A stretch of 64,000 bases of DNA from Pyrococcus furiosus DSM 3638 (GTDB lineage: Archaea; Methanobacteriota_B; Thermococci; Thermococcales; Thermococcaceae), in NCBI RefSeq assembly GCF_000007305.1, contig NC_003413.1, positions 1,173,318-1,237,317 of the forward strand, read 5' to 3'. The notes under the pieces are model-generated. The model had not been told where the DNA came from and searched no databases. It worked only from the letters and a program-made list of their open reading frames with translations. Both the position numbers and the translations under genes were made by a program. The stretch's first letter is position 1. Every line of letters begins with the position of its first letter. This document shows positions 7,797 through 60,719 of the stretch, piece by piece.

Positions 7797-8822
7797 TAGC
7801 AGGCTCATGAAAGATCATTAGTTATATTATCCTAGGAGTGATGCTGTGGAATAATTTCAATGTCAAAAAATTTTTAAGTATGTGTGTAATTTTTTGAGAG
7901 TGGGTGATAATGTGTCAGTACTGAATATAGCGATTAAAGAATTCGAGATAAGCATTAGAACAAAAAGATTCTACGTTATTTTAGGAATATTTTTAGTAAT
8001 TGCAGTGGTATTCATAAGTCAGCTGAACTCAATAATGAACACACTTGGCTTTGAGTTCAAGACTCCATTTCAGCAACTCTTCCTCACGTCATTTTCCACT
8101 GCTTACGTTTATGGTGTAACGTTACTTTCCCTTCTCTTGGCTTCAACAGCTATAAATTCTGAGATAAAACAAGGCACAATTAAAGTTCTTGGAGCTAAGC
8201 CTATTTATAGGGACACGATAATCTTTGGAAAACTTCTGGGAGGGGCTATAACTATTGCTGTAACCGTGGGACTCTTTTATGTCTTTATGATAGGAATTGC
8301 GCTCGTATTTGGTGCTGGAGTAACTGGATATGATATCAGCAGGCTTCTCGCAATTTATCCAATTACAATACTCTATGGAGTGGCACTTTACGCATTAGGT
8401 ATTCTTCTATCGGTAATAATGAGAAATCCAACTAATAGTCTGCTTGCTGGGATATTTGTTTTCATAATATTTGTCTTTGTAATCCCGATAGTTGCCTCAA
8501 TAGTGGCCTTTGCTACAGCAGGAACGCCACCAAGCTTAATCGTTGAATACGAGAACAATACGCCTGTTTTTACTCAAAACAGAGAGTTTCAGGAGTGGAT
8601 AAACAGGTATTATTCAACTTATTCTAAAATCATCATTTTATCTCTTCCTACGGATTTTGGGGAAATATGTAGCCTTATATATGGTTCAAAGGCTGGAGAG
8701 GACATCTTAGGAAGTTTGACATTTTTAGGGGGAAGTGAAGAAAGTGTTAGCATAGTTGAGGATAGAAGCATTATCGAGGGAATAATTCTAGGCCTCCCCG
8801 ACTTAATTCCGATAATAGTTAC

Positions 8823-8841
8823 ATTGTTTACCCTAGTTCCC
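8823..8841. repeat. Target duplication plus left inverted repeat of the IS element
   Basis: ATTGTTT (8823-8829) is the first copy of the target-site duplication. ACCCTAGTTCCC (8830-8841) is the left terminal inverted repeat. Confidence 0.88.
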
Positions 8842-9761
8842 ACCACCTGTGAAGTTGTATAATCTGTCCAGATTCACGGCCAGAATCGCCCCTAAAATCC
8901 TGACAGCTAACCCCCTCAAACTAACACTCCTGCTCGGCCTCAGAAGAAACTCAGAAAACTTCGAAAACAAAGTCTCAATCCTCCTGCGAAAGTCAGACAA
9001 GTACTTGTAAAACTTCTTCTCCTCCAGATTACTAATCTGATTCCCCCGCTTTACTGGCGTGTAAACAACGCCAAACCTCAGAAATTCCTCCTCGAGCCCC
9101 CTGCTAACATACCCCTTATCCAAAAACAGAAAACAGCCAGAAAACTCCTCAACAATCACCCAGAACTTTTCCCGGACAACACTCACATCATGCTTATTCG
9201 CCGGATCAACAGACAGTAAAGCCAGCAAATTTCCATCAGAGTAACAGGTCAGCTTGTACCCATAGTAAAACTTTTTTTAGAGGGAACAAACCCAACTGCG
9301 GGCTTTTCAGAGATGACTTCTGAAGAACCCTCCTTATCCTTCCTGTTTTTTCTGGCCAACTCCTTGGTCTGAATGGGCTTTGAGTCCAGTATTCTAACGT
9401 ATTCTCTGGCGTGTTTTTTGAATAATTCTTCCTGCGCTAGGAGCAGGAGTTTTTCGTGCCTGTTCAAGCGTTCTGTTAGTTTGTTGTACCTGATTTTGGG
9501 GAACAGCTTCATTTCTTCGATTAGGACTCTGTAAGCGTGCTTGTAAACTCCGTTAAAGTGCAAGTGTGCTAGTATTGCGAAGGTTATCAGGTCGTAGAGG
9601 CTGATTACTTCCCTGCGAGTGTTTTTCGGGTAGTGTTTGCTGATTATCGGATAGATTTCGGATTTTATGATCAGGATTTTCCTTTGAAAGCTCAATACAA
9701 CCACCAATCAACCAAAAGACTTAAGTGCTTATAACTCTAACGATCTAATGGGAACTAGGGT
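8830..9761 (-). mobile_element. IS982-family insertion sequence, 932 bp
   Basis: The element is bounded by perfect 12-base inverted repeats, ACCCTAGTTCCC and GGGAACTAGGGT, and flanked by 7-base direct repeats ATTGTTT. It carries one minus-strand DDE transposase gene that almost fills it. Terminal ACC, size and transposase type all fit IS982; a P. furiosus ISPfu3-like identity is likely but not checked. It disrupts the ABC permease gene in opposite orientation. Confidence 0.92.
8833..9707 (-). pseudogene. IS982-family transposase, frame broken at an A7 run
   Basis: The N-terminal part (9707-9249) ends with the first DDE aspartate region DSKPIQTKELARKN. The C-terminal part (ending 8833) has LFLDKGYVS and the RRRIETLFSKF glutamate region. 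The frames join at minus-strand TCT AAA AAA AGT (T run at 9272-9278). A -1 slip, or one extra A, gives KKKFYYGYKLTCYSDG and one continuous protein of about 291 residues, the normal IS982 length. This may be a single-base deletion, or productive -1 frameshifting on A AAA AAG. The exact start (TTG 9707 or a later TTG) is uncertain. Confidence 0.82.
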
Positions 9762-9768: not shown

Positions 9769-9824
9769 ATTTCCCTATTCCTAAGCTACCTAAAGTTCAT
9801 TAAGCTAGATCTGAGGTGATAGAA

Positions 9825-10751
9825 ATGTACGTTATTGAGATTGAAAATTTAACAAAAAGTTATGGAAAGTTTAAGGCAGTAGATAGTCTTACCTTGAACG
9901 TGAAAGAGGGAATTGCCTTTGGATTTTTAGGTCCAAATGGAGCTGGCAAAACTACGACAATACTTAGCATGCTTGGGCTGATAGTTCCAAATAGCGGTTC
10001 CATAAAAATTTTTGGATATGATATATTTAAAGAACCCATAAAGGCCAAAGAGCGGCTTGGTTTTTTGCCTGAGAATGCAACGCTTTATGAAGAACTAACA
10101 GCATGGAGAAACCTCGAATTTTTTGCCAATTTTTACAAGATGTCTAGGCAAGAAAAAGAAAAGAGAATAGAGGAACTCTTAAAACTTGTCGGTCTGTGGG
10201 ATGTGAGATTTAGAAGGGTTAAGACATTTTCCAAAGGAATGAAGCAGAGGCTCCTCTTAGCTCAGGCATTGATTAATGATCCAGATCTATTGATACTTGA
10301 TGAACCTACGAGCGGCTTGGATCCTGAAGGAGCATATCTTGTAAAGAGTATAATAAGGGAACAGAAAAAAGCTGGGAAGACTATATTCTTCTCTTCACAT
10401 GTGTTAAGCGAGGTTGAGGAGCTTGCAGATGAAGTGGGCATAATTGTAAAGGGAAAACTAAGAACTGTTGGAACCCTTGAAGAAATTAAAAAGCAGTTTA
10501 TGGAGCTTGAAGGATATGAGATTAAGGTGGAAACTAAACAACCTATACCAGAGATCGTTCACCCAGAAATTATTAGGATTGAAAAATTGTCCGAAAACAA
10601 GGCAATAATATTTGCAAAATCCGACATTAGAGAAGATATTAGTGAGGAACTACAGAAGAGAAATATCACAATTTTAAGCCTTGAAGTAGAGGAGCCAAGT
10701 TTGGAGGACGTGTTCTTAAGAACAATTTATAAGAGGGGGGACGAAGAATGA
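9825..10751 (+). CDS. ABC transporter ATP-binding protein
   Basis: The 308-residue ATPase has Walker A GPNGAGKTT near residue 38, signature FSKGMKQRL near 134, Walker B LLILDEPTSG near 154 and H-loop SSHVLSEVEEL. The C-terminal 80-residue extension is typical of ABC-2 exporter ATPases (NatA/CcmA type). ATG 9825 follows GAGGTGAT (9813-9820), which also holds the TGA of the ancestral permease, so the two were translationally coupled before the insertion. It presumably pairs with the permeases at 7912 and 12951. The IS lies immediately upstream and may have altered its expression. Confidence 0.92.
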   Translation: MYVIEIENLTKSYGKFKAVDSLTLNVKEGIAFGFLGPNGAGKTTTILSMLGLIVPNSGSIKIFGYDIFKEPIKAKERLGFLPENATLYEELTAWRNLEFFANFYKMSRQEKEKRIEELLKLVGLWDVRFRRVKTFSKGMKQRLLLAQALINDPDLLILDEPTSGLDPEGAYLVKSIIREQKKAGKTIFFSSHVLSEVEELADEVGIIVKGKLRTVGTLEEIKKQFMELEGYEIKVETKQPIPEIVHPEIIRIEKLSENKAIIFAKSDIREDISEELQKRNITILSLEVEEPSLEDVFLRTIYKRGDEE

Positions 10752-53318: not shown

Positions 53319-54026
53319 CTATTCCATGTACACTTCAATTATTCTCACTGGCTTTGCTCCTCTAAGCGTTTGCTCCTCCACCAATATTTTAACTATCCTT
53401 CCAGGCTCTGCGTCGGGAACCGCTGGAAGCCAATAGTAGCCGGGCTTAACATTGGCTGCTATGTCATCGTGCACGTAAACTCTAACTAAGTCCCCCTTAA
53501 CTTCTTCAACAACTCCATAAGTGTAATCTCTCCCATACTTTGACTTAAACCAGTGCCTAAAGACTAGAACAGTAGCTAAAACTGCAAGTAAGTATATGTA
53601 GTAGTGGTAGGGTGAAGTTGAATACTCTCTTACTATAATAAATCCACCGTACGATATTGTTGCGATAATTGATAGGCTTAGATAAAATGCTCTATAGGGT
53701 TGATAATCGATGAAAAATTCTCTGTTCGTAATTAGAAGATATCTCAGGTAGAGGAAGTAAAAAAAGGCCACAACTATAAAAATTTTCCAAAAATTCATGA
53801 ACACAAGGAGCAAGCTAAAGATTAGATACACCAAGAAGACTAACTGAAGCTTTAAGCTAAGTAGCTCGTGGGGAGTCTTTGCTCTCTTAGCTAATCTTCC
53901 CAGGATAGATCTAGGGAGTTCCTGGGAAGGAGAGGGAAGAAGAAGGTTTTTGGTTATATAGAAAATTTTCCAGATTCCTACCTCTATCTTCTCGCCCAGG
54001 AGGTATAAGAATTCTTCCAGTTTCAT
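53319..54026 (-). CDS. DUF2101-like membrane protein
   Basis: The 235-residue protein has four to five membrane helices in residues 55-160 and a soluble C-terminal beta-domain (YGVVEEVKGDLVRVYVHDDIAANVKPGYY). It fits the DUF2101 family of Thermococcales. The start lies 9 bases after the DUF2341 protein gene, so it belongs to the pilin-like surface operon, perhaps as an anchor or assembly helper. Confidence 0.72.
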   Translation of the reverse strand: MKLEEFLYLLGEKIEVGIWKIFYITKNLLLPSPSQELPRSILGRLAKRAKTPHELLSLKLQLVFLVYLIFSLLLVFMNFWKIFIVVAFFYFLYLRYLLITNREFFIDYQPYRAFYLSLSIIATISYGGFIIVREYSTSPYHYYIYLLAVLATVLVFRHWFKSKYGRDYTYGVVEEVKGDLVRVYVHDDIAANVKPGYYWLPAVPDAEPGRIVKILVEEQTLRGAKPVRIIEVYME

Positions 54027-54035
54027 GATTTCACC

Positions 54036-56522
54036 TCACTGACAATTATAGCCATATAAGAGTTCACATGCTCCTCTTGGTCCGAATATTTCTTTAGCTG
54101 TATTCTCATCGAGGAAGAACGGAATTAGTGATAGATTTGTTCCCGAATAACTTCCGAAAGATATGCCCCAAACTCTATATCCTTCAACTTTATCTCCATG
54201 TCTGAAGTAATATGTAAGGAAATAGTAGTCTGCACTGCTAACATTAGTTATTGTCAGTCCAAAATTGGCCATAAGAGTGGAAAGCTTTTGGTCGTAGGAA
54301 GGATGAGGTATCATAAAGCTTACTAGGCCTATTGGGTAGTATCCGCTAGGAGGCTTGTAGTTTAGCTCTTCTTGCATTTTATGAGCTAATGCTACGTATT
54401 TGTCGTGATTTGCGTTACTCCCCTCGAGCCTCTCAAAGAATGACCATCCACTTTCGAGTGCAAAATACCTTTGATCTTCAAGGCAGCTTATGAAAGGTTG
54501 AATGTCGTAGACTGAGGCGTTAACTATCTCTTTTGCGGAAGTTGTTGGTTTGCTCTCAATTACATCACTTGGAGTTGTACTCTTCCAATAAAACGTTATT
54601 CCATTAAAGTAGGGATCATCGAGTAGATCTGTGTTGGGTCTTTTTCTAACTAAGACATAGTCATAGTATGTCCAAATATAATCGTATTCACTATCCGTGA
54701 CAAGATAAATGTAGGCGAGCTCAGAAAAAATCCTTAGATAATAATAATTATAATACTCATTATAATCATCGTTTAATCTGTTTTGTGAGTTTGCATTGCT
54801 GTCAAGGACATCTTTAAATTTTGCATCATAATATCCTTCACTAACATTATTCATAATGGCTTCATAGGTGTGGTAAGTAGTGATATCAGAACGTCCAGAG
54901 TCTCCAGTTGTTAGGTAGTTCCGCCAGGGTCTATGAATAGCTATTCCCTCACCGGAATCTTTATTACCATTTATAACATTAGGATCTATATCATCTGTGA
55001 ACAATAGGATACCTCCTTGGTTGTCTTCTACTCCAACTCCACTGTCCCAATTTATTTTATTCCCTATAATCCTTATCTCTCCTTTCATTCTAAACCTTAC
55101 AGAGAATGACCCTGTAAATCCAATATAGTACTTACTTTTTACTGCAAGTACATTATTACCTCCTTGAATATAAAGTTCCCCGTTGCTTTGAGTTGGTGTG
55201 ACATCAACAGCCTCCCACTTGTCCGTCCATGTAGAATCCTCAAAGTCATCAAAAAATATGAATACGGCCTCTCCATTTCCTTTTGTTGGTGTTCCGCTAC
55301 CAAAGTACAGTGAATACGTTTTTCTGCCTCCATTCGGAATGCTGTCTCTAATCCAAATTAGTGCTTTCTGGTTTGTTGGATCCCAGTATTCTATCCAAAA
55401 TGGAATCGGATTGCAGTTTGAGTCATAAATTTCGATTGCAGCGCCTTTTCTGAATATATCTTGATCATTGGTAGTTTGGGTGTTTGAAAATATGAAGTCG
55501 AGAATTTCCTGTGTAAATCCTTTTGCCGTAGATATTAATAATGGTATTTGATAATCATCTAAGTCAATTCCTACGTTATTTTGGATAGTCAAGTTTATCC
55601 TGTACTGAAGTGACGAACACCATCTAACTTCGCTTCCCTTTCCTCCCTCAAATACCAAAACTCCCCTATCTCCATTATTAAGAATAAAATCTCTCGGACT
55701 TACTTTAACACCATTAATTGTAAGATTTGTGATATAGTAACCTGTGTCGGAATCCACTATATGGGTAGCGTTAGAAATAAATTCAATGCCAAATCTCCCA
55801 ACTAAAACTCCACTTCCAATCCCCTCACCTTCGGCAAAAGTAAAGGGGGGAGATATGTTGGAATAAGCGTACTCACAGGCTCTCAATGAGCGTTTATACC
55901 TACCCTTTGTCATTGCGGAGTGGAAAGGATCTTCAAGATTATTTAGGTTTACTATGGAGTATGCATATCCTTTTCTCGGTAGAGAGCCACTATAAATAAC
56001 TTTCCCAGAAAGATCTTCTATGGTGATGTTGGGAATTCTAATCTTGATAACAATTGTGAAAGCATCAAGGGGTGCAACCAGAATTTCGGTATTTGCAAGT
56101 ATTTCGTCTTTTGAAGGTTTGAGTATATATCCCTGCTTCTTTAGAATTCTTTCAACTCCACTAAGCCATGCTTCAAGAGTTTGATTGCCCATTATCCTGG
56201 TAGCATCGTACCCTGGAAGAGAAGAGGAACGTCCATAAAATATCAGCTCGGCAATTGTTTTGTTAGCCATTCCACTGATAAAGTTTGTAGTAGTAGCTAC
56301 ATAGTCAATGGTAGCAATGATTGCTCTTTTTCCGGAAATTTCAACGCTCTTTTCCAGCTCAATTTCAAGGAAATTCACAACGCTGTACGTTCTCTCTGCT
56401 TGGGATCTTTCTGCTTGGGAATGCATTACATAGGAGGATATCTCGGCATATGTTGCTGCCAATAGAAGAAGAGGGATAATTAGAATTAAGAGTGTAGAAT
56501 TTATGATGAACCCTCTCCTCAT
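54036..56522 (-). CDS. Surface protein with pilin-like N-terminus and DUF2341 domain
   Basis: ATG 56522 follows GGAGGGAG; the longer frame from 56537 would add five residues. About 828 residues. The N-terminus RRGFIINSTLLILIIPLLLL is a charged stub plus a hydrophobic helix, like archaeal class III pilins. A DUF2341 module (about residues 300-430: YRINLTIQNNVGIDLDDYQIP ... IPFWIEYWDPTNQKALIWIRD) is followed by a concanavalin-like beta domain (FFDDFEDSTWTDKW) and a globular end. Start overlaps the previous stop by 1 base (TAATG). Confidence 0.8.
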   Translation of the reverse strand: MRRGFIINSTLLILIIPLLLLAATYAEISSYVMHSQAERSQAERTYSVVNFLEIELEKSVEISGKRAIIATIDYVATTTNFISGMANKTIAELIFYGRSSSLPGYDATRIMGNQTLEAWLSGVERILKKQGYILKPSKDEILANTEILVAPLDAFTIVIKIRIPNITIEDLSGKVIYSGSLPRKGYAYSIVNLNNLEDPFHSAMTKGRYKRSLRACEYAYSNISPPFTFAEGEGIGSGVLVGRFGIEFISNATHIVDSDTGYYITNLTINGVKVSPRDFILNNGDRGVLVFEGGKGSEVRWCSSLQYRINLTIQNNVGIDLDDYQIPLLISTAKGFTQEILDFIFSNTQTTNDQDIFRKGAAIEIYDSNCNPIPFWIEYWDPTNQKALIWIRDSIPNGGRKTYSLYFGSGTPTKGNGEAVFIFFDDFEDSTWTDKWEAVDVTPTQSNGELYIQGGNNVLAVKSKYYIGFTGSFSVRFRMKGEIRIIGNKINWDSGVGVEDNQGGILLFTDDIDPNVINGNKDSGEGIAIHRPWRNYLTTGDSGRSDITTYHTYEAIMNNVSEGYYDAKFKDVLDSNANSQNRLNDDYNEYYNYYYLRIFSELAYIYLVTDSEYDYIWTYYDYVLVRKRPNTDLLDDPYFNGITFYWKSTTPSDVIESKPTTSAKEIVNASVYDIQPFISCLEDQRYFALESGWSFFERLEGSNANHDKYVALAHKMQEELNYKPPSGYYPIGLVSFMIPHPSYDQKLSTLMANFGLTITNVSSADYYFLTYYFRHGDKVEGYRVWGISFGSYSGTNLSLIPFFLDENTAKEIFGPRGACELLYGYNCQ

Positions 56523-58687
56523 TAACTCTCCCTCCATACTCTAAGGGTTATTTGAATTGGCTCGAATAAACCTGGAATCTCTCCCATTGACGCAAATTCT
56601 ATATTCACATTTTCTGGGAGCTTAACTGTAATTGGTGAGTCCCTAGTCCCGTACCCTCCAAGATTCTTGAAGAGTCTAATTATGGCGTCATCTACGGCAT
56701 ATTGTTTGCTTCCTTCGAGGAGTTCTTCTGCACTTAACTGGCAATAAGGCTCTTCACCTGCTGTTATTGTATCCTCATAAACGTTTATGCCATCAGTCCA
56801 GTGGTATGTTATATTATATCCCCCACATCCTTCCCGTATATACTTTGGAAAGACCTTTCCATAGCCAGCATACGCATTTAGGAAATACTTTACTACTCCC
56901 CTAGTAGCCCCCTTTCTATAAGATGTTCCCCCTTCGTCTACTCCAACATCAAGTGTTGCTGTGAATGTGTTTTCTTGATTTGGAATCATCATATACTGCT
57001 CGTTTAACCTAGTATAGGCAATTCTTAATGAATAAACGCCATTTGGCCCGCTGTAAAACTCGTATCTATTTTCAATTAGCCTCTGGGTAGTGCTTGATGC
57101 AAAACAATAGCCAACCCAGAGATCTACATACCAGGGCTCTGCATAGGGAGGGAGGGTATACTTAAAGCTCAGACTCTTGTATGTATCAAGTTCACAGTCC
57201 CATCCAGTGTAATCAGAGTATTTGATGTCCGAGTAGCCTACCTTTATTGATACTGGAATGCTGTAGGGAGTTCTCAAGATTTTTGGCGTGTACTTAATTT
57301 CAATTATGGAGTCTGGATATCCATAGAGTCTGCGAGTTCTTACCCCTTCACAGTCAGGACAGGTTATAGGGTAATACTCTCCATTATACCATATAAAGTA
57401 ATAACCTCCTCCATAAAGAAATCTTCCAATGTTCTCGTCATACTTGGCATCAACAGCTAATACAAAGTCAAAGACCATCTTGGAGAGATTTGAATACGAC
57501 ACTCCTATCCGAGATAATCCCTCTCGTATTTCATCATCAGTAAACTCCACAGTTTCGATTGATGCGGGATCAACGTATTTCTCGGAAATTAGCCAAAGAT
57601 TTTCTCCTAATCCATAGTATAACCTAACTACTTGAGCCCCTTTAACTTTAAATTTCATATTTATACTCTCAATATCTCCTGGGACGAAGTTTTCAAGCAA
57701 GTAAATAAACCCTGTATATTGGGAGGTGACGTCATAAATTTTTATGACTCCCGGGTCTTCTACATATGGAATGCTACTTAGGTATTTCACATATATTGTT
57801 GTACCGCTTCCTATACCCATTTCCCAATAAGAAGAGGAATTATAAAATTTGAATTCTATCACGTTGTCCCCAGGAACGAGGTAATCTTTTATGTCGGGGG
57901 CATTTGGAGCCCCTGAGGTTAGAGATACTCTGTTCCCATTAATATAGACCTCCATTTTTTCGTCACTTCTTTTTACAAAGTTTCCATCTGCCTCTAAAAT
58001 TTTGCTATCAATAGGTAGGTATATGGTTGCATTTACATATAACTCGGTACTCCATATATGTAATGTGTTCTTCCATTCTATTCCTGCCCAGGCCTCAGCA
58101 AGAACTCTCATAAATCCGAATAAGTCTTCTCTAACGGATGTAGCTCTAGTTAAGTATGCCCTTGCCATATATCCCCTGGGGGTCTGATTGTATGCATAAC
58201 CACTCATTAGAAGAGTGGCCTCTGAAACATATGGAGCTTTAGAGTAGTTGCTTCCAACTCTTCTCAGATATGGGCTCGTGTAATTATTAATCAAGAGTTC
58301 GTAGTTATATCCTTTCAAAGTTTGGTTAAGGATGTAGCCTAAAATTATCTCAGCCTTATGCTTTAGATCTTTTTCCGGAAATATGGGATCTGTTGCCCAA
58401 TAAGTAGCAACGATATCTAAGGGTGACATATCTGGTGAGACTATTTCGGAATCCAATATTCCACTCTCACTCCACTTTAAAATTATTTCAGACGAGACTA
58501 GCTGGTTTAATGGTGCCGTCCTAAGAACAATAAGAACATTCTCTGCAGTATGCTGGTATTGGGAGACTAAATAACTTGAATATACCTCTCTCTCAGTCCT
58601 CAGTAGGGAAAAAGTACCAGCTACAACTACAGTTGTTAATAGTAAGGCTAGGAGAGCATCGAGGGTAAATATGAATCCCTTCCTCAT
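56522..58687 (-). CDS. Large surface protein with pilin-like N-terminus
   Basis: The 721-residue protein starts MRKGFIFTLDALLALLLTTV, the same charged-plus-hydrophobic pattern as its neighbours. The rest is beta-rich, with many Asn and Tyr residues and paired Cys (CPDCEG, CYFASST-like region), consistent with an exported structural or adhesive protein. No enzyme motif seen. ATGA overlap with the gene before it. Confidence 0.75.
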   Translation of the reverse strand: MRKGFIFTLDALLALLLTTVVVAGTFSLLRTEREVYSSYLVSQYQHTAENVLIVLRTAPLNQLVSSEIILKWSESGILDSEIVSPDMSPLDIVATYWATDPIFPEKDLKHKAEIILGYILNQTLKGYNYELLINNYTSPYLRRVGSNYSKAPYVSEATLLMSGYAYNQTPRGYMARAYLTRATSVREDLFGFMRVLAEAWAGIEWKNTLHIWSTELYVNATIYLPIDSKILEADGNFVKRSDEKMEVYINGNRVSLTSGAPNAPDIKDYLVPGDNVIEFKFYNSSSYWEMGIGSGTTIYVKYLSSIPYVEDPGVIKIYDVTSQYTGFIYLLENFVPGDIESINMKFKVKGAQVVRLYYGLGENLWLISEKYVDPASIETVEFTDDEIREGLSRIGVSYSNLSKMVFDFVLAVDAKYDENIGRFLYGGGYYFIWYNGEYYPITCPDCEGVRTRRLYGYPDSIIEIKYTPKILRTPYSIPVSIKVGYSDIKYSDYTGWDCELDTYKSLSFKYTLPPYAEPWYVDLWVGYCFASSTTQRLIENRYEFYSGPNGVYSLRIAYTRLNEQYMMIPNQENTFTATLDVGVDEGGTSYRKGATRGVVKYFLNAYAGYGKVFPKYIREGCGGYNITYHWTDGINVYEDTITAGEEPYCQLSAEELLEGSKQYAVDDAIIRLFKNLGGYGTRDSPITVKLPENVNIEFASMGEIPGLFEPIQITLRVWRES

Positions 58688-60126
58688 GAATCATCCCACA
58701 CCCACAGTTTTATTATAGCAGCGTCTAATTTTGGAGCAAGCGCCCACTTAATATCTGGAATTATTTCTATCTTTACTGAACCTCTGTCCCATCCCTCCAA
58801 AGAGTAGAGCCACATTGCAACTGTATCTCCTTCTTGGGGATTGCCAAAGAGATCTTTTAGGGGTATTGATATCGAAGTACTGTTTCCAGTATAGTGAATT
58901 GAAGTGTTTCCATGAACTACAACCGCTCTAACGATGTTTTCAAAAGGCATTCTGTATATCATAAGTCCACTCATATCGGATTTTGATAGCACTACAAAGG
59001 ACATGTTTCCTGGAAGATCGGGAACTGTAATCTTAAGGTAAGAGCCCGCAGGAAGTTGAGATCTAAGAACTCCATAGATCATAGGGACTTCAGAGGATGG
59101 ATTTGCTGAGAGGTCGTAGAGAAAGGTCTCAATGCTCACTGTTCTCTTTTCCACTTCTACCCAGGGAGAACGCTCCATTGATGCCTCGATTATAATTTTA
59201 TCGTTGATAACAGTTCCGTTTATCACGCTAAAGGACAAAGTAGGAATATCCTGAAGTTCAACAACTTGAGCAAATGTGTAGTTTCCTAGGATATTTGGAA
59301 CTGTGCTGTCGTATGCGGAAACAGTGACTACGACGTTTCCCTGTCCAGTAATCTTTAACGTCTGCCAGCATGGATTGAAGTTAATTTGAAGGTCACTTGT
59401 TTTATTGAGAATGAATATCTCTATAACAGTTCCCGGAGGTACAATGATAGGAGGCCTATCGTCTTTTTTATCATCTATTGAAGTGCTTTCTGTTGTTATT
59501 ATCTTCATATAATTTATATAACTTTCATCCTCTTTTTTATTATTTTTATTACCAAGCTTTAGTACGTTTCCCTTTACTAATTTACAGACTTCTTCATTTT
59601 CATATTCGGTTCCGTCAGATCTTCTTAAGAGAATGTAGCTAACGGTAAAGTCTCTTCCATCTGGGCTTTCCACTCTAAAATTGGCCCCACCAGAAGGATT
59701 ATCAAGTCCAAAAGTAACATTTGCAAGGTATACTCTGGGAAAAGTCCCGTTAATGCTAACATTATATCTTGAGAGAAAGACCTCAAGCATGAAGTCTTTC
59801 CCGTTGGAAATATCTATGGCTTTTCCAATAACCTCGGGAGAAGAAAGCTTCATAACTTTGAGATAATCTAGAGCGTAGCTCCTGTTAGAACTTCTAAGTC
59901 CAACAACTTCCAACTTTGAGATATCTAGATGCCAATCTTCGGGCTCACCTGGGCTCTTTAAAAGAACATCCAACATATTCTCAGCTACGTTAGCTCTCTC
60001 ATACCAATCGATAAGTGAAACTATCTCATTCTTTATGCTCTCCGATGTAGCAGAGACCGTTCCAATTATCATAACTACAATTACCATTGAGACCAGTGCA
60101 TCCATGGAAAATACTTGACCCCTCAA
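58684..60126 (-). CDS. Surface protein with pilin-like N-terminus
   Basis: TTG 60126 is chosen because GGTGGGAG precedes it, giving MRGQVFSMDALVSMVIVVM, the same pattern as the next two proteins. A GTG at 60138 would add four residues. About 480 residues. The N-terminal helix is followed by mostly beta structure with an NVSINGTFPRVYLANVTFG segment and many potential N-glycosylation sites. First large gene of the operon. Confidence 0.75.
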   Translation of the reverse strand: MRGQVFSMDALVSMVIVVMIIGTVSATSESIKNEIVSLIDWYERANVAENMLDVLLKSPGEPEDWHLDISKLEVVGLRSSNRSYALDYLKVMKLSSPEVIGKAIDISNGKDFMLEVFLSRYNVSINGTFPRVYLANVTFGLDNPSGGANFRVESPDGRDFTVSYILLRRSDGTEYENEEVCKLVKGNVLKLGNKNNKKEDESYINYMKIITTESTSIDDKKDDRPPIIVPPGTVIEIFILNKTSDLQINFNPCWQTLKITGQGNVVVTVSAYDSTVPNILGNYTFAQVVELQDIPTLSFSVINGTVINDKIIIEASMERSPWVEVEKRTVSIETFLYDLSANPSSEVPMIYGVLRSQLPAGSYLKITVPDLPGNMSFVVLSKSDMSGLMIYRMPFENIVRAVVVHGNTSIHYTGNSTSISIPLKDLFGNPQEGDTVAMWLYSLEGWDRGSVKIEIIPDIKWALAPKLDAAIIKLWVWDDS

Positions 60127-60183
60127 CGCTCCCACCACTTCATAATTATATTGTGTATGGCTTATTTAACGATTTTGATTCAT

Positions 60184-60603
60184 CTATATGTATCCATGCT
60201 CTTGCAAGACACTGATCCACGCTTCCTCAATCTTTCTCGCTAGTACATCTTTTAAAAGCTCTTTTATATCTTCAAATTCAAAAAGGCCCTCCCGATATAC
60301 TATTCCAGAAGTTTTGAGCTTTATCTCTACTTTCTTCTCATTTTTGTCAATTTTTATATCTTCAACTTCGATTTCATGCTTTTTGAGTACCTCTGCTGTT
60401 TTATTCCAGTTACTTTCAAAAACTGTATTTAGAACATCTTCATCTAACTCTCCAATAACATAGGTAATCGTTGCCTGATATTTTATCCCCACAATTTCGG
60501 TATCGTTGAAGATTCTCTCTACTTCAGCGTGAAACATGAACCATTCTCTTTCCTTTTCATCTCCCATTCTAATGAGATCTGAGATCGTGATTTTCTTTAT
60601 CAT
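60184..60603 (-). CDS. Hypothetical protein upstream of the surface operon
   Basis: ATG 60603 follows GGAGGTGCAC; three codons upstream of it are possible but unneeded. The 139-residue soluble alpha-beta protein has no recognised family. The gap to the pilin-like gene is 57 bases, so it may be the first gene of that operon or a separate unit. Function unknown. Confidence 0.65.
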   Translation of the reverse strand: MIKKITISDLIRMGDEKEREWFMFHAEVERIFNDTEIVGIKYQATITYVIGELDEDVLNTVFESNWNKTAEVLKKHEIEVEDIKIDKNEKKVEIKLKTSGIVYREGLFEFEDIKELLKDVLARKIEEAWISVLQEHGYI

Positions 60604-60719
60604 TTTGTGCACCTCCTTTCACGTTATAAAGAAATAGGCATTTAAACCTTCCTAGAATAAGTTCTTTGATACCTTAAGATGATAGTGGAGAACTAACATT
60701 AGCTCCTGCCAAATTCACA

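Follow-up and report, generated by a model that had tools for sequence, protein, structure and literature searches.

We analyzed a stretch of 64,000 nucleotides from Pyrococcus furiosus DSM 3638 (NC_003413.1, positions 1,173,318 to 1,237,317; hereafter the window), in which four consecutive genes, here called A to D, encode three large prepilin-like proteins and a membrane protein. It is probable that A, B, and C are giant minor prepilins that form the tip or priming complex of a clade 1 type IV pilus (T4P), with bodies that are swapped as cassettes. This reading draws on the N-termini and predicted folds of the proteins, on the fixed gene order of the locus in relatives, and on the abrupt replacement of parts of these genes between closely related genomes. 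The genes and the regions within them are as follows:

58684..60126, minus strand: gene A, minor prepilin-like, 480 aa from a TTG start or 484 aa from an upstream GTG
56522..58687, minus strand: gene B, minor prepilin-like, 721 aa
56879..57265, minus strand: jelly-roll of B (residues 475-603) with a borderline resemblance to CBM35/BcsB carbohydrate-binding domains
54036..56522, minus strand (828 aa), or 54036..56537 (833 aa, with an ATG further upstream as the start): gene C, large class III protein that carries DUF2341
55212..55445, minus strand: DUF2341 domain of C (residues 360-437)
54633..55262, minus strand: predicted legume-lectin/ConA-like beta-sandwich of C (residues 421-630)
54543..55481, minus strand: region of C (about residues 348-660) that matches a piece replaced between close relatives, as judged from the L160/L155 and L137/L138 identity profiles and the L160/L155 DNA breakpoints (L labels denote loci and G labels genomes)
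53319..54026, minus strand: gene D, DUF2101 membrane protein, 235 aa

Prepilin features of the A-D block

An earlier note on this DNA had described three successive open reading frames (ORFs) of 480, 721, and 828 residues with overlapping starts, a DUF2341 module in one of them, and a DUF2101 protein after the trio, all of which held up. The overlap is 4 bp between A and B, and 1 bp or 16 bp between B and C, depending on which of two start codons is chosen for C. The module is in the third gene, C, where DUF2341 is the only domain recognized by Pfam (PF10102, E 5.1e-23), and D belongs to PF09874 (DUF2101, E 4.6e-101). No Pfam family matched A or B, no Ig or CARDB family was found by Pfam in A, B, or C, and a scan of A-D against NCBIfam yielded nothing of weight. 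In the window, A-D are intact ORFs, and A-C retain their conserved ends.

The N-termini of A (RGQVFSMDA), B (RKGFIFTLDA), and C (RRGFIINST) each contain the class III cleavage pattern of type IV prepilins, [KRDE][GA][ALIFQMVED][ILMVTAS] as quoted in PMC5517150, followed by a hydrophobic segment. The window has 109 ORFs that reach 80 aa, and a pattern search found such an N-terminus in 4 of them: A, B, C, and a 427-aa membrane protein at 499-1782. An acidic residue at position +5 is usual in type IV prepilins, but not universal. None of the three proteins has it; A and B have Asp at +6 instead, and C has neither. Among homologs of A, 78 of 79 carry Asp at +6 relative to the predicted cleavage site, the sole exception (L137) being a protein whose start was placed too far upstream by the longest-ORF rule. 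Asp at +6 of B and Asn at +4 of C were each found in 80 of 80 homologs, counts to be read in light of the anchor patterns, which themselves require these residues, as well as Glu in QT and Glu or Asp in QIS, two prepilin-like proteins encoded upstream of A in relatives. An acidic residue at +5 or +6 occurs in 0 of the 80 C proteins. QT and QIS carry Glu at +5, and 75 of 78 QT and 72 of 77 QIS proteins fit the acid-requiring pattern.

A D-A-L type N-terminus had been thought to be shared by all three proteins. This is true of A and B, whose N-terminal profiles align over 75 columns (E 9.7e-8), but not of C, which matches B only weakly (25 columns, probability 21.5%). In type II secretion, absence of the acidic residue is typical of the outermost pseudopilin, GspK, and by analogy the missing acid of C might mark a comparable position.

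Relatives of B may reach beyond these genomes. When the B family was compared with DUF7288, 8 of 32 members matched at E-values up to 0.1 (best E 1.4e-4), B of the window being none of them; one match reported with a score reached 17.7 bits, where the cut-off is 27. Halobellus encodes a DUF7288 protein (L214:3801-7948; RGQAHTLEA, with an acid at +6) among class III-like small proteins. Judging from sequence similarity, this locus and the weak B matches hint at an older archaeal minor-pilin set.

Structure models of B and C show the long N-terminal helix and beta-rich head of type IV prepilins, with low predicted local distance difference test (pLDDT) values in parts of the helix. The model of B has a pLDDT of 86.7 and a helix at residues 9-57, and that of C a pLDDT of 80.3 and a helix at residues 3-78. 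Foldseek searches with the whole models placed GH43 xylosidases at the top for C and unrelated large beta-rich proteins at the top for B, in both cases with TM-scores of 0.06-0.2 by query length, and these matches were not used to assign a function. The VIA lists were filled by one domain, and folds absent from them count as no evidence. Searching solved structures by sequence for C and B gave chance antibody matches only.

Directly upstream of A, on the same strand, lies an ORF of 142 aa (60184-60612) without a relative in the loci fetched from other genomes. It shows a weak, sub-threshold Cas6-like match (19.3 bits; cut-off 58.65). Between this ORF and A, a TATA-like element, TTAAATAA, was seen by eye at about 60162-60169. 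A scan for sigma-70 type promoters, the wrong promoter type here, gave as many matches as in shuffled sequences.

The locus and its motor in relatives

The class was represented by 115 genomes. DUF2101 was found in 87 of them, A in 84, and B in 82 with a single-sequence query and in 85 with a profile. A wider search at the level of the phylum covered the same 115 genomes, without Methanococci. DUF2101 was absent from all 14 control genomes, Methanocaldococcus jannaschii among them, and a scan of genome contigs with B as the query gave no match. We fetched 79 loci, from 78 of the 87 DUF2101 genomes and from G107 (G006, G038, G074, G076, G077, G080, G090, G091, and G114 were left out).

Gene order is fixed across these loci. 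A adjoins B and B adjoins C in 79 of 79, with one A-B gap of 240 bp (L072), and D follows C in 77, the exceptions being L146 and L192, in which the contig ends. In L146 (G036), about 40 kb separate the DUF2101 gene from A-B-C; A-D is split in no other fetched locus. QT is situated directly upstream of A in 78 loci; in the remaining one, L187, the contig ends before that position. QIS, a protein of about 210 aa, and a CetZ-type tubulin are encoded further upstream, as is, in 74 loci, a secreted squalene-cyclase/TED-like protein (SQ). The class III signal of QIS, scanned in one member, falls just under the cut-off (23.2 versus 23.7 bits), and QT has no Pfam match, its prepilin-like label resting on its N-terminus. 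The adjacency of QT and A, the class III pattern, and the helices in the B and C models together support the earlier suggestion that these proteins are minor pilins.

Among alleles of the trio, C of G040, G052, and G056 is short and has no DUF2341 match. An 834-aa allele of A (L059:6685-9189) has a bactofilin-like region (PF04519, E 8e-8), a different inserted body.

Clade 1 T4P were described by Makarova et al. 2016 (PMC4858521) from Thermococci, Methanococci, and Methanobacteria, with large DUF2341 proteins proposed as tip adhesins; the gene family and the adhesin prediction are thus already published. That locus includes several class III proteins, an FtsZ-family GTPase, a squalene cyclase, an ATPase, and two TadC proteins. 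By sequence, the A-D locus appears to fit this group rather than a new structure: C is a large class III protein with DUF2341, and relatives have the prepilins, the FtsZ-family GTPase, and the squalene-cyclase-like protein in a shared locus, which in the window are not present in cis. A dedicated prepilin peptidase, EppA, is a further hallmark of the group. Another, a VirB11-type ATPase with two TadC proteins, was found in all 24 relatives chosen for an ATPase hit. In each of these, the genes for the ATPase, two TadC proteins, a DUF515 protein, and a secreted protein lie within one stretch of 17-19 kb, and they are adjacent in L119 and L123, the two for which gene order was inspected. The ATPase ORF exceeds 900 aa in 23 of the 24 genomes and measures 814 aa in L119; in L123 (7061-10657), the ATPase contains an intein bearing a LAGLIDADG homing endonuclease. 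The distance between the ATPase and B was measured in 24 genomes picked for having both genes on the same large contig; none fell below 36 kb, and the median was 276 kb. Therefore, an A-B-C trio without an adjoining ATPase is the rule.

The other locus genes, a T4P ATPase, and TadC are absent from the 64-kb window in a search at E 1e-5, and a second search of the window with 40 queries found nothing either (best match E 0.097, best ATPase match E 0.61), so that the earlier remark that no secretion ATPase is nearby stands for the window. Neither flank of A-D is duplicated within the 64 kb or resembles any fetched locus at E 1e-4, so nothing in that range points to an insertion sequence. As only L187, at its contig end, lacks an upstream prepilin-like gene among the 79 loci, the arrangement in the window stands alone. 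Going by the relatives, the motor genes of the window strain would be located elsewhere in its genome.

Replacement of gene bodies between close relatives

When aligned to the window proteins, homologs of A, B, and C show conserved ends and a less conserved middle. To compare close relatives, we used the 69 of the 79 loci that have all nine genes, with SQ and D at full length, and selected pairs whose CetZ proteins share at least 95% identity and whose 210-aa proteins share at least 90%. This gave 23 pairs from 32 genomes, which are therefore not independent. Median identity was 0.93 for SQ and 0.86 for D, and 0.44 for A, 0.47 for B, and 0.52 for C. Identity fell below 0.5 in 13 pairs for A, 12 for B, and 11 for C, compared with 1 for SQ and 0 for D; at least one of A-C was below this value in 15 of 23 pairs, and all three were in 9. 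Some close pairs share alleles, with A, B, and C at least 0.9 identical in 6, 6, and 5 pairs, respectively.

The motor proteins served as a control in 16 pairs with CetZ at least 93% identical (L129, L130, L133, and other fetched loci were not used). In G004/G053, the five motor proteins are 96-98% identical and CetZ, the 210-aa protein, and SQ 93-99%, with identities of 24% for A, 32% for B, 27% for C, and 69% for D. Similarly, in G044/G068 the motor proteins are 93-99% identical, and A, B, C, and D 29%, 63%, 73%, and 71%.

DNA alignments were made for 11 pairs chosen for contrast. In all 11, an alignment of 85-97% identity breaks off abruptly at some point from the first prepilin gene to C, and similarity resumes within B, C, or D. 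The extent of the replaced piece varies: in L177/L077 it is the body of B alone, in L160/L155 the middle of C alone, and in L135/L173 several pieces form a mosaic. In L152/L145, the sequences are 94% identical across QT and the first part of A, show little or no similarity after that, and regain 85% identity from D on. The C proteins of L160 and L155 are 95-100% identical at residues 1-320 and 681-826, 68% in the border blocks, and 12-50% in between. The replaced stretch corresponds to the DUF2341-lectin module, and DUF2341 is present in both alleles; the swapped piece in C can thus be this lectin-like module alone. For L138/L162 and L160/L155, the contigs measure about 2 Mb, which makes errors of binning unlikely in these pairs.

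With a grouping threshold of 50% identity, the bodies form 31 types for 77 A proteins, 14 for 80 B proteins, and 25 for 66 C proteins. The body of A in the window is a type of its own, and those of B and C belong to the largest types. On a tree of flanking genes (FastTree, without a support check), the types change 40, 38, and 36 times for A, B, and C. For the rows on the tree, single origins would require at least 28, 13, and 22 changes, and 200 shuffles gave 48-57, 42-53, and 41-47. The number of changes thus exceeds single origins and falls below random. Long B proteins (at least 800 aa; 12 of 80) are paired with a short C (below 400 aa) in 10 of 12 cases, suggesting that the subunits have one job in common.

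Proposed role of the tip complex and alternatives

We propose the following model. A, B, and C would be cleaved after the Gly or Ala of the [RK][GA] motif, anchored in the membrane by their N-terminal helix, and assembled together as a pilus tip or priming complex, with C outermost as the putative lectin carrier. An ATPase, two TadC proteins, and DUF515 would make up the motor, provided from a separate location in the genome, and D, which accompanies the trio, may be a membrane helper. All three prepilins would keep their conserved ends and show a variable middle domain to the outside, and the middles would be replaced by homologous recombination via these ends and the flanking genes, so that the binding of the pilus is changed and the machine is not. 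In the window genome, a rearrangement probably split A-B-C-D from the pilin/CetZ half of the locus.

Several observations weigh against this model. The tip position of A-C is argued by analogy, and the model of C has a predicted template modeling score of 0.57. Variability is not confined to A-C: in the 23 close pairs D falls as low as 0.55, and identity is below 0.5 for QT in 3 pairs and for QIS in 1, as well as for SQ in the one pair counted above, so the variable zone at times extends to QT and QIS. At the looser cut of 16 pairs, SQ is below 50% in 5 and some motor proteins drop to 51-77%; in G068/G071 and G044/G071 the motor proteins are 51-84% identical. In addition, the block in the window is without the rest of the locus in cis, including the pilin/CetZ half, and the multi-contig genome G105 has A-D and no PF00437 among the matches listed.

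More tentatively, the tip could be a strain-specific recognition device, in which a fixed motor and frame carry interchangeable modules, lectin-like and others, on three co-evolving subunits, with many alleles maintained by diversifying selection and by recombination via the conserved ends of the genes. Candidate causes of such selection would be partner recognition, surface or DNA specificity, and escape from viruses that use pili.

DNA is also central to the best-placed alternative, in which the tip complex serves mainly for DNA uptake in natural transformation and its variable modules bind DNA or tune the choice of DNA. A screen for transformation-defective mutants of Methanococcus maripaludis recovered transposon insertions in epdI, in epdH, and in a DUF2341 gene numbered beside these two epd genes (MMJJ_08190-08210; PMC10133366, Table 1), and the same paper names P. 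furiosus and Thermococcus kodakarensis as competent. However, any orthology of epdH and epdI to A and B is putative, the 115 compared genomes being without Methanococci. DUF2101 was not found in the controls. The lectin-like fold of C points to sugars instead, and DNA uptake alone would not need diversity of alleles. We rank a tip adhesin complex first. DNA uptake is a strong alternative, or a further role beside adhesion, and is possible but rather unlikely as the main function.

We consider it unlikely that A-C sit as minor pilins at the base of the pilus or on its shaft, with C as the only adhesin, even though Makarova et al. 2016 (PMC4858521) placed minor pilins other than the DUF2341 proteins near the base, and A and B have a common N-terminus that C lacks. 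The bodies of all three are exchanged between close relatives, and the pairing of long B with short C suggests one exposed surface in common.

Given the lack of a secretion ATPase, the earlier note had also entertained a distinct surface structure. We rejected a novel secretion structure of the ATPase-less kind in view of the motor genes found elsewhere in the relatives examined, and the cluster fits a described pilus type. The note had conceded that its idea would fall if the cluster were found with standard pilin ATPases elsewhere and already described; given a described clade 1 T4P and an ATPase elsewhere in relatives, this is largely the situation. A narrower reading is that the window organism itself has an ATPase-independent (bindosome-like) structure, or that its separated block is decaying. 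The lack of motor and other pilin genes in the window, its arrangement, unmatched among the 79 loci, and the listed matches of G105 speak for this, while the intact ORFs with their conserved ends and the motor genes of the 24 relatives speak against it, leaving it unlikely, slightly more so than the basal placement. Finally, ordinary fast evolution of A-C under relaxed constraint, in line with the generally faster evolution of membrane and surface proteins (PMC9425974), is very improbable, as identity drops from more than 90% to little or none inside one gene and then returns, and body types recur on the flank tree (38 changes among the 14 types of B).

Returning to a diversified pilus tip, the locus can be set beside known systems of surface variation. 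In Neisseria, antigenic variation of PilE changes the pilus surface through recombination. The changes in A-C differ in being seen between strains or species and in minor-pilin-like subunits. PilY adhesins, found at the tip of bacterial T4P, are marked by a PilY1-type C-terminal domain. By Pfam, C has DUF2341 alone, and it possesses its own class III N-terminus and helix. Both are large and share a tip adhesin role, proposed in the case of C, and DUF2341 is stated to occur in PilY (PMC4858521). The VARTIG of Thermococcales (PMC8416519) are likewise surface-exposed and variable through recombination between species. They comprise 31 islands in 22 of 42 genomes, with Ig-domain proteins and variable gene sets, in contrast to the single locus, fixed order, and pilin-like proteins seen here. 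An arCOG07710-type Ig protein with variable sets of downstream genes marks VARTIG. We rejected membership of A-C in this group, as Pfam shows no Ig or CARDB domain in them and the 79 loci have one gene order. One Thermococcales class III pilin family with a variable region, arCOG04026, is described in PMC9425974 and could correspond to one of the genes of this locus.

Relative to clade 1 T4P as described, the trio in the window differs in being detached from the other locus genes, and neither cassette exchange of A-C nor the +6 Asp and +4 Asn signatures were found in the portion of that account covered here (PMC4858521). Likewise, none of the papers listed by full-text searches was seen to report cassette exchange in A-C, supplementary tables and most subscription papers being outside the search.

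For Makarova et al. 2016, it is a major enigma that T4P are so abundant in hyperthermophilic archaea (PMC4858521). Swapping of tip modules on a constant motor would show which part is under diversifying selection, and the locus offers ready natural chimeras. In genera with genetic tools (Thermococcus, Pyrococcus), roles in adhesion, DNA uptake, and partner recognition can be tested by allele swap.

Elsewhere in the window, a superoxide reductase is encoded that is identical over 124 residues to the chain of PDB 1do6, an entry from P. furiosus. Two minus-strand ORFs at 8833-9707 resemble, by eye, one transposase gene in two pieces. They are bordered by the gene for an ABC-type permease (7882-8862) on one side and that for a probable ABC ATPase (9816-10751) on the other.

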